The notes beneath the pieces were generated by a model. That model saw nothing but the letters and a program-made list of their open reading frames with translations. It was not told where the DNA came from and ran no database searches. A stretch of DNA of 64,000 nucleotides, taken from positions 1 to 64,000 of IMG/VR virus record IMGVR_UViG_3300027418_000009. The stretch is one strand, 5' to 3'. The position numbers and the translations under genes were made by a program. The stretch is from a virus. Positions within the stretch are counted from its first letter, which is position 1. Each line of letters begins with the position of its first letter. Positions 23,847 through 39,547 of this stretch are shown piece after piece.

Positions 23847-24260
23847 ATGGTAACAACAACCTTGGATCTATTTAATGATCCTTTTTTTATTGGCTTCAAC
23901 AGAGAGTTGAGTCGCCTAAATACAGCACATAAAACAAATTCACAATCATATCCACCCTACGATCTTCTAAAACTAGATGAAGATACATATCAGATCTCAT
24001 TGGCTATTGCTGGATTTTCCAGGGAAGACATTGATGTCTCAGTAGACAATGGAACTCTTATTATTAAGGGTGAGATTGTAGAAGTAACAGACGCTGAAGT
24101 AGTTCACAAGGGTATCGCTGGTCGTAAATTTGTACGATCATTTGCTCTTGGAGAATATATGGAAGTTACTTCTGCAGAACTAAAGGACGGCATGCTACAT
24201 GTTCATGTAGTTCGCATTGTTCCTGAAGATAAAAAGCCTAAGACAATCAAAATCAAGTAG
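23847..24260 (+). CDS. Hsp20 small heat-shock protein
   Basis: The 137-aa chaperone has an alpha-crystallin domain: PPYDLLKLDEDTYQISLAIAGF, REDIDVSVDNGTLIIKGE, RKFVRSFALGEYMEV and AELKDGMLHVHVVRIVPED, with the usual A-x-L-x-x-G-x-L. The tail holds the IKIK anchor motif. Hsp20s hold unfolded proteins and are often carried by phages of aquatic bacteria. It has its own strong promoter. Confidence 0.93.
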   Translation: MVTTTLDLFNDPFFIGFNRELSRLNTAHKTNSQSYPPYDLLKLDEDTYQISLAIAGFSREDIDVSVDNGTLIIKGEIVEVTDAEVVHKGIAGRKFVRSFALGEYMEVTSAELKDGMLHVHVVRIVPEDKKPKTIKIK

Positions 24261-24294
24261 TCACTAGTCCTGAGTATGACTAAAACTGCTCACT

Positions 24295-24323
24295 ATTCAT
24301 CTAAAGTTAACTTTTAGTTTACC
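24295..24323 (+). promoter_or_regulatory. three 11-bp direct repeats resembling an actinobacterial PhoP box
   Basis: ATTCATC (24295), GTTAACT (24306) and GTTTACC (24317) start exactly 11 bp apart, the spacing of GTTCACC-type PhoP repeats. They end 31 bp before the -10 box of pstS. Seen: the repeats. Inferred: binding by host PhoP under phosphate stress. Confidence 0.6.
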
Positions 24324-24354
24324 AATTATAACAAAAATTTACATTCAGATCAGA

Positions 24355-24360
24355 TATACT
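24355..24360 (+). promoter_or_regulatory. -10 box of leaderless pstS
   Basis: TATACT, 6 nt, then ATG 24367. No -35 at the usual distance, which fits activator dependence. Confidence 0.6.
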
Positions 24361-24366
24361 ATAAGT

Positions 24367-25413
24367 ATGAAATTTAAATTCATTGCTTTACCAATAGCAT
24401 TAGCCATATTTGCTAATGCTTTTTTTATTACTCCTTCACATGCTGATAACCTTCAAGGTGCTGGATCCACATTTGCTGCTAACTTTATAGACAGATGCAG
24501 GGTCGAATTTATGAAATCAACAGGAGATTCTGTTGTATATGGAGCATCTGGCTCAGGTGCTGGAAAGAATATGTTTACAAATGGAATAACAGACTTTGCT
24601 ATGTCAGATGTTCCTTATTCAGGATCAGAACAAAAACCATCAAAAGAGTTCACCTATGTACCATTAGTTGCAGGGCCAATTGGAATTATATACAAACTTG
24701 ATGAATATAAGATTACTATTAAGATGAGCAGAGATACACTTGCTAAAGTTTTTGCGGGACAAATAACAATGTGGAACGATCCACAAATACTAAAAGAAAA
24801 CATGATAGGAGCAAGACTACCTAAGATACCAGCAACAAAGATTAGAGTTGTATACCGTGTTGATGGTTCTGGAACTTCAGAAGTTTTTACTTCATATTTA
24901 AATGCAGTTGCTCCAGCAATCTGGACAAAGCCAGGCAACAAAAACTTTGGTACTGCATTCCCTGGAGACATATCTAGGCAGTATATGAACAGTGCTTCTG
25001 GATCACATGGAATTGCAATGGTACAAGGAACAACAAATGGATCTATTGGATATAACGAGATATCATATGCAAGAGGATTAAAAACAGTCTCTGTTGAGAA
25101 TGAGGCTGGAAGGTTTATGCAGCCAACAGTAGGCGCAGCCTCAGTATTCCTTGGAGACTTTGTTCCAGATAAAAGCGGGGTAGTTAAGATTAACTATAAG
25201 AACCCTAATAAACTATCTTATAACATATCTACTTTTACATATGGAATAGCATATAAAGAGAAAAACTCAAAGAATGATTCAGTTAAAAAGTTCTTTAACT
25301 TCATGCTTGATACCTGTGGCAAGAAGGCTGAGGACTTGGGATACTCCCCAATCAGGAGCGCTATGCTTAAGTTCTCAAAGGCAAGAGTAGCAGAAATAAG
25401 TTCAAAACCGTAG
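24367..25413 (+). CDS. pstS: PstS phosphate-binding protein
   Basis: The 348-aa protein begins with a signal peptide (residues 1-26, ending SHA-DN) and has the PstS fold: LQGAGSTFAANFIDR, GASGSGAGKNMFTNGITDFAMSD, VDGSGTSEVFTSYL and a closing segment LDTCGKKAEDLGYSPI. The AGST, GSG and SGT motifs bind phosphate. No lipobox Cys follows the signal, so it may be secreted rather than anchored. Phage pstS is an auxiliary gene known from cyanophages that raises phosphate uptake during infection. The upstream direct repeats suggest host phosphate control. Confidence 0.93.
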   Translation: MKFKFIALPIALAIFANAFFITPSHADNLQGAGSTFAANFIDRCRVEFMKSTGDSVVYGASGSGAGKNMFTNGITDFAMSDVPYSGSEQKPSKEFTYVPLVAGPIGIIYKLDEYKITIKMSRDTLAKVFAGQITMWNDPQILKENMIGARLPKIPATKIRVVYRVDGSGTSEVFTSYLNAVAPAIWTKPGNKNFGTAFPGDISRQYMNSASGSHGIAMVQGTTNGSIGYNEISYARGLKTVSVENEAGRFMQPTVGAASVFLGDFVPDKSGVVKINYKNPNKLSYNISTFTYGIAYKEKNSKNDSVKKFFNFMLDTCGKKAEDLGYSPIRSAMLKFSKARVAEISSKP

Positions 25414-25426: not shown

Positions 25427-25543
25427 ATTCCGCTTAAGACTTTAAAAGGTTTTGCAACGGATGCTTCCTTGATGGAAGAGTTGGCAGGAGTTGAACCTTC
25501 GTGGCTAATAGACCTGAGCAGTCGTCTCTAAACTGCTCTTTTC
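25427..25543 (+). ncRNA. candidate small RNA with its own promoter and terminator
   Basis: The stretch holds no ORF with a ribosome-binding site. It contains a hairpin CTTCC/GGAAG, an outer pairing AAGGTT with AACCTT and a terminator hairpin GAGCAG/CTGCTC followed by TTTTCTT. With TATAAT at 25414 it would make an RNA of about 115 nt. It is not a tRNA on either strand. Function unknown; position after pstS is suggestive only. Confidence 0.55.
25516..25543 (+). terminator. rho-independent terminator
   Basis: Stem GAGCAG...CTGCTC with an 11-nt loop and a following T-rich tail. Confidence 0.75.
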
Positions 25544-30233: not shown

Positions 30234-30242
30234 TCATAGAAG

Positions 30243-30251
30243 TTATCCACA
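30243..30251 (+). promoter_or_regulatory. DnaA box (TTATCCACA)
   Basis: Exact consensus box, isolated, 10 nt upstream of the leftward -10 at 30228. Confidence 0.6.
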
Positions 30252-30254
30252 GGT

Positions 30255-30443
30255 TTAGACATAGTCTGGATGGTCTAATGGAGTAGGTGCTGTGATAAGA
30301 CATTTACATTCCATACATTGGGCATCATCCAATAAATACCCTGCGATTTCATAGGTTTGTGGATCAAACTCTACAGTTAACCTTAAGAGTGTTGAGTGAC
30401 AACAAGGACATACAGGTGTAGGGATACCTCTGATATCTATCAT
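30255..30443 (-). CDS. zinc ribbon protein, 62 aa
   Basis: TPVCPCCHSTLLRLTVEFD and CMECKCLI form the two zinc knuckles around a small beta sheet. Function unknown. Confidence 0.65.
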   Translation of the reverse strand: MIDIRGIPTPVCPCCHSTLLRLTVEFDPQTYEIAGYLLDDAQCMECKCLITAPTPLDHPDYV

Positions 30444-30604: not shown

Positions 30605-30657
30605 TTATCCACAGGCTATAGAACATATCTATTACATATGTTTGGTAGTTATCCACA
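30605..30657 (+). promoter_or_regulatory. two DnaA boxes
   Basis: Exact TTATCCACA at 30605-30613 and 30649-30657, both followed by GGCTA. Confidence 0.65.
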
Positions 30658-30702
30658 GGCTAAACGATAATTTGTATACCAGGAATTAGTGGTTTAGCAT
30701 AG

Positions 30703-30723
30703 TTATCCACAGGTTTATCCACA
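30703..30723 (+). promoter_or_regulatory. two tandem DnaA boxes
   Basis: Exact TTATCCACA at 30703-30711 and 30715-30723, start-to-start 12 bp. Confidence 0.7.
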
Positions 30724-31125
30724 GATTAATCTTACTGATAATATATTTAGACATTCTAGAAGTGGAGTGAAGTGGAGGATAGTGGAGTATGGAGCATTTT
30801 CAAGAAGGGCGTCGTAATCTTTAACGGCCAAACCTCCTATCTACAAAACCTCCTATCCCCCTTTGCCCCTTATACCACAAACCTTTCTATTTGTCAAACC
30901 TTACAAGACATGGGCATTATATACCATGAAACATGGTTTGTCAAGCCCAATTATTGTGCAAAACCTCATATAAAATTTGTACGAATTTGTGGATAAAATC
31001 AAATAAAATTAAATAAATGTTTTAAATGTTTTATAAAAGAATCAAAAAGTTATTGTTTTATATATGGTGGTTTTACTATAGGGATTTGGTATCAGATGAT
31101 CCTCTGTCCCCTGGGATTTTGGGCT

Positions 31126-34851: not shown

Positions 34852-34890
34852 AAAAAATGTTGAGCAGTTTTAATTCATGCTCAGGAATTT
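34852..34890. terminator. TGAGCA/TGCTCA terminator 1
   Basis: TGAGCA (34861-34866) pairs with TGCTCA (34878-34883); T-runs flank it on both strands. Ends the DUF932 gene. One of a repeated family. Confidence 0.7.
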
Positions 34891-39441: not shown

Positions 39442-39527
39442 AAAAATTTTTCCCGCCCAGGATTGGGGGAAATAAAAATTGCCTTCTTAAAGATATTTTA
39501 TAAGGGTTACCAGTGAGTAGGTCAAGG

Positions 39528-39547
39528 TTATCCACAGGTTATACACA
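39528..39547 (+). promoter_or_regulatory. two DnaA boxes
   Basis: TTATCCACA (39528-39536) and TTATACACA (39539-39547), start-to-start 11 bp. Confidence 0.65.

Follow-up and report, generated by a model that had tools for sequence, protein, structure and literature searches.

What controls a phosphate-uptake gene that is carried by a phage? This question is raised by a locus in the IMG/VR virus record IMGVR_UViG_3300027418_000009, which comprises 66,216 bases. The window analyzed here consists of positions 1 to 64,000 of that record and contains pstS (24367-25413, + strand), which encodes a phosphate-binding protein of 348 amino acids with a predicted leaderless start. A sequence-only reading had noticed direct repeats before this gene, likened them to actinobacterial Pho-type boxes, and proposed an independent actinobacterial parallel to cyanophage pstS. 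In our analysis, the region is very probably a host-type Pho promoter, in which three 11-bp repeats serve as the operator for the phosphate response regulator of the host.

Repeats and -10 element upstream of pstS

The repeats are ATTCATC (unit 1, 24295-24301), GTTAACT (unit 2, 24306-24312), and GTTTACC (unit 3, 24317-24323), all on the + strand. Their starts at 24295, 24306, and 24317 are exactly 11 bp apart, as the sequence-only reading had stated. Each unit was scored with a weight matrix built only from pstS promoters of the Nanopelagicales (acI), the probable host group. Unit 1 was the weakest at 4.5 bits, followed by unit 2 at 7.1 bits and unit 3 at 9.7 bits. A PHO box was taken to be at least two GTTCACC-like units with an 11-bp period, and three such units were found here.

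The triple ranked first among about 128,000 positions in the window with the host-only matrix, at 21.4 bits compared to 11.7 bits for the next site. None of 60 windows simulated with a first-order Markov model reached its score. The pair alone is weaker evidence, as it was reached in 5 of the 60. The pattern GTTWACY-N4-GTTWACY, with zero mismatches, occurred a single time in the 64-kb window, at the pstS promoter.

Unit 3 lies 31 bp before a -10 hexamer of the TANNNT type, TATACT (24355-24360, +), which has no -35. A search of 24200-24420 gave no sigma-70 promoter that includes a -35. Only 6 nt separate TATACT from the pstS ATG at 24367, and the pstS mRNA is probably leaderless if transcription starts about 7 nt after the -10. 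The lack of a -35 and the probable leaderless arrangement had both been pointed out from the sequence. Between the box and the -10, the in-phase place of the promoter-proximal host unit, which is at +44 in the host, is occupied by the degenerate TTACATT (24339-24345, +; -2.0 bits with the host matrix). An RNA structure was also considered for the repeat region and was rejected, since folding was no better than that of shuffled sequences (z +1.7). An Rfam search gave no match at the pstS locus.

Counterparts in sister phages and in Nanopelagicales

A relative was present in 77 viral loci. Spacing and phase were tested in the 26 phages that had pstS and non-redundant upstream DNA, by seeking the best triple with the host matrix. 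With units spaced by 11 bp, the triple averaged 13.1 bits, whereas the averages for spacings of 7-10 and 12-15 bp did not exceed 3.3 bits. In 21 of the 26 phages, the triple was the best site of the entire locus on both strands. In all 26, the third unit was followed by a TANNNT hexamer at a fixed gap. This gap was exactly 31 bp in 20 of the phages and exactly 20 bp in the other 6, a difference of 11 bp. The sequence-only reading had asked whether the repeats persist in relatives; they were not lost, the 11-bp spacing was strongly preferred, and the distance to the -10 was kept throughout. In two of the phages (L051 and L073), a ribosome-binding site is present and the ATG lies 68 and 58 bp away, yet the 31 bp to the -10 are kept, which indicates that the box is tied to transcription and not to the start codon. 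Across 18 aligned promoters, the units held more information than the stretch between the box and the -10.

On the host side, 180 of the 207 genomes from the order to which Candidatus Planktophila belongs had a PstS relative, and the host pstS was preceded by a gene with a PstB-like end in 115 of the 119 loci fetched. An unseeded motif search of 97 non-redundant host intergenic regions returned CCAATTGTTCACCTA. When the host pstS promoters were aligned on this motif, units were seen at -11, 0, +22, and +44, with TANNNT at +60 (62 counts) or +59 (27 counts). The distance from unit 1 to the -10 in the phage is 60, the same as in host pstS.

The pattern GTTNACY-N4-GTTNACY had 24 matches in 13 host genomes. 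Fourteen of these were located before phosphate genes (7 before phoU, 5 before pstC, and 2 before pstS), and the remaining 10 are about the count given by a reversed control pattern. The PhoU and PstC identities were confirmed by NCBIfam. These matches support the earlier assignment of the repeats to actinobacterial Pho-type boxes, as the phage units match Nanopelagicales operators before all three genes.

The phoU promoter was also surveyed. Many loci were lost to start-codon detection, which left 26 promoters to count, and 25 of these had a strong box. The gap from the box to TANNNT was 31 bp in 17 of the 25, and the distance from the box to the ATG was 43-44 bp in 18 of the 25. The values for phage pstS are 31 and 43. 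By these sequence distances, the host phoU promoter is the closest match of all to the phage geometry. The gaps of 31 and 20 bp in phages, 31 bp in host phoU, and 9 bp in host pstS all fit 9 + 11n. The phage box precedes a phosphate gene and is in phase with the -10 just as the host boxes are. The host phoU box sits between phoU and a divergent pair of genes for a histidine kinase and a response regulator, and the best PDB match of the latter is RegX3 (2OQR). The host regulator is probably this RegX3-like response regulator encoded beside phoU. The earlier reading can be refined in two respects: the candidate regulator is RegX3-like, and the geometry corresponds to that of host phoU, whose promoter is leaderless by prediction.

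A separate observation concerns Nanopelagicales phoU itself (L249-L268, L424-L493). This gene seems to have a leaderless promoter with a Pho box and a constant gap of 31 bp, and a SenX3-RegX3-like pair lies divergently beside it.

PstS, its neighbors, and the probable host

The phage PstS scored 147.9 bits for PF12849, above the cut-off of 27, and contains the RxDGSGTS loop. Matches to PstS structures in PDB also backed its identity. DGSGTS was invariant in 16 phage proteins, and R164, D166-T170, and S171 were invariant in the phage alignment. At 192.4 bits, the protein was just under the TIGR00975 equivalog cut-off of 205. Phage and host PstS (window 24367-24450; host loci L127-L165) both begin with a signal peptide whose end is AxA and which lacks a lipobox cysteine, an unusual feature among Gram-positive substrate-binding proteins.

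In the PstS tree, the phage proteins formed one separate clade (99/99). Of the groups compared, Nanopelagicales stood closest to this clade, and cyanophage PstS was distant from it. Identity was 44% to Nanopelagicales and 33% to cyanophages. The phage PstS profile reached up to 307 bits in Nanopelagicales, whereas in a whole-phylum sample it gave at most 189 bits, with the exception of one genome at 269 bits. Low-GC actinobacteria were found with a WhiB codon pattern. When genome contigs were scanned with the alignment of phage PstS, no cellular relative turned up. The terminase is about 52% identical to that of Streptomyces phages of the Samisti12 kind, which, together with the closer relationship of PstS to Nanopelagicales than to cyanophages, supports the actinobacterial assignment. 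The host is probably a Nanopelagicales-like actinobacterium because of the PstS tree and the profile scores.

The usual 5' neighbor of pstS is hsp20, a small heat-shock protein gene (23847-24260, +; PF00011), which adjoins pstS in most sister loci as it does here (23847-25413). Cyanophage S-PM2 likewise has hsp20 with a predicted Pho box (PMC10976474). The box remains with pstS where hsp20 is elsewhere or was not found (L049, L051).

Two further elements were seen in the window. The first is dispersed and resembles an H-type RNA pseudoknot, with a variable stem, the loop CTGAGCAT, and after it AAACTGCTCA, the end of which can base-pair with this loop. Copies are at 24265-24292 and near 25513 on the + strand, near 34885, 36114, 37222, and 41902 on the - strand, and in loci L304-L383. 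At least 120 viral stretches carry the element. Stem pairs 1 to 3 are formed in each of the 86 distinct viral copies, and all four Watson-Crick pairs occur among these copies at stem positions 2 and 3; randomly dealt arms gave at least three pairs in about 22%. It starts within 30 nt after a stop codon in 54 of 87 copies, and it also occurs in marine Siovirus roseophages, where it lies between the genes for ribonucleotide reductase and glutaredoxin. There was no Rfam match to this element, and a search by its sequence letters found no paper. The second consists of DnaA-box-like TTATCCACAGG words repeated at 30241-30259, 30648-30665, 30702-30730, and 39526-39544, with two in tandem at one place. 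These words may be part of a replication origin served by the DnaA of the host.

Regulation of pstS and comparison with known systems

If phage pstS is transcribed from a host-type Pho promoter like that of phoU, as predicted, phosphate scarcity would probably turn the gene on through the phosphate sensor of the host itself. RegX3-like proteins are the actinobacterial counterpart of PhoB/PhoP. From the repeats, their conserved spacing, their agreement with the Pho operators of the host, and the constant phase they keep to the -10, we infer the following chain of events. At low phosphate, the sensor kinase would phosphorylate the host regulator, most likely the RegX3-like protein, which would then bind the repeats on one face of the helix. 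The bound regulator would help RNA polymerase use a -10 without a -35, giving a leaderless pstS mRNA, and the phage PstS would deliver phosphate to the host PstCAB transporter during phage replication.

Several points weigh against this interpretation. The promoter-proximal unit is degenerate in the phage compared to the host promoters, the sites of two sister phages (L071 and L075) are weak, and the host itself was assigned from sequence. Also, work on S-PM2 cautions that predicted Pho boxes in cyanophages are not always bound by PhoB (PMC10976474). Because of the degenerate proximal unit, the strength or threshold of the phage promoter may differ from that of the host's. A tentative extension, which we regard as possible but doubtful, is that a freshwater actinophage clade converged on or captured the leaderless phoU-type host promoter for pstS, and that dropping the proximal unit and adding a distal one retuned it to a different level of phosphorylated RegX3 than host pstS.

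Other explanations were also weighed. OmpR-family regulators commonly bind direct repeats about 11 bp apart, so the repeats could bind another member or a nutrient regulator, such as MtrA or GlnR, and pstS would then answer a different signal. This seems improbable, as the matrix was derived from pst promoters and the host-genome matches concentrate before phoU, pstC, and pstS, beside the RegX3-like pair. The degenerate proximal unit could also suggest that the box represses pstS or is the relic of a promoter captured from the host, and that expression follows the infection program of the phage; this is quite unlikely, since spacing and phase to the -10 are retained across phage PstS lineages down to about 50% identity, which is not expected of a relic. 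Chance repeats can be dismissed, even though the promoter DNA is AT-rich, GTTAAC-like words are simple, and the pair alone arises in simulation, since the triple did not arise there and its strict spacing is conserved across 26 phages.

A host-type Pho promoter at phage pstS suggests that linking a phosphate-uptake gene to the starvation circuit of the host is a strategy that extends to the phages of a second bacterial phylum. The idea is testable, as acI bacteria are abundant in lakes and acI phages are now in culture (PMC10202952). The precise promoter model, with 11-bp units and a -10 at 9, 20, or 31 bp, could also be used to find other phosphate-responsive phage genes. Two reports on acI phages do not mention pstS (PMC10202952; PMC6802176), and a literature search in which most subscription journals were missing turned up none that describes a Pho box in an actinophage.

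Among known systems, the Nanopelagicales phoU promoter shares with the phage the order of adjacent units, 31 bp, TANNNT, 6-7 nt, and ATG, and is likewise leaderless by prediction. The phage differs in that it adds a third unit upstream, has no recognizable proximal unit, and serves pstS rather than phoU. The PHO box of PhoP in Streptomyces is also made of 11-nt direct-repeat units, and one such box precedes pstS (PMC7866108). The phage operator is predicted, and it belongs to a low-GC phage with more AT-rich units (GTTAACT, GTTTACC). The P-SSM2 cyanophage pstS is under the control of host PhoBR, and the cyanobacterial Pho box consensus is PyTTAAPyPyT/A (PMC10976474). A box of this type was rejected for our locus, as the units begin with A or G rather than C or T and TTAA occurs in unit 2 only. 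As in the cyanophages (P-SSM2 and S-PM2), pstS would be put under the host phosphate regulon, but in another phylum, through another operator, and with a PstS from another branch. The strategy is known from cyanophages; what appears to be new in this well-supported case is the phylum, the type of operator, and the geometry.
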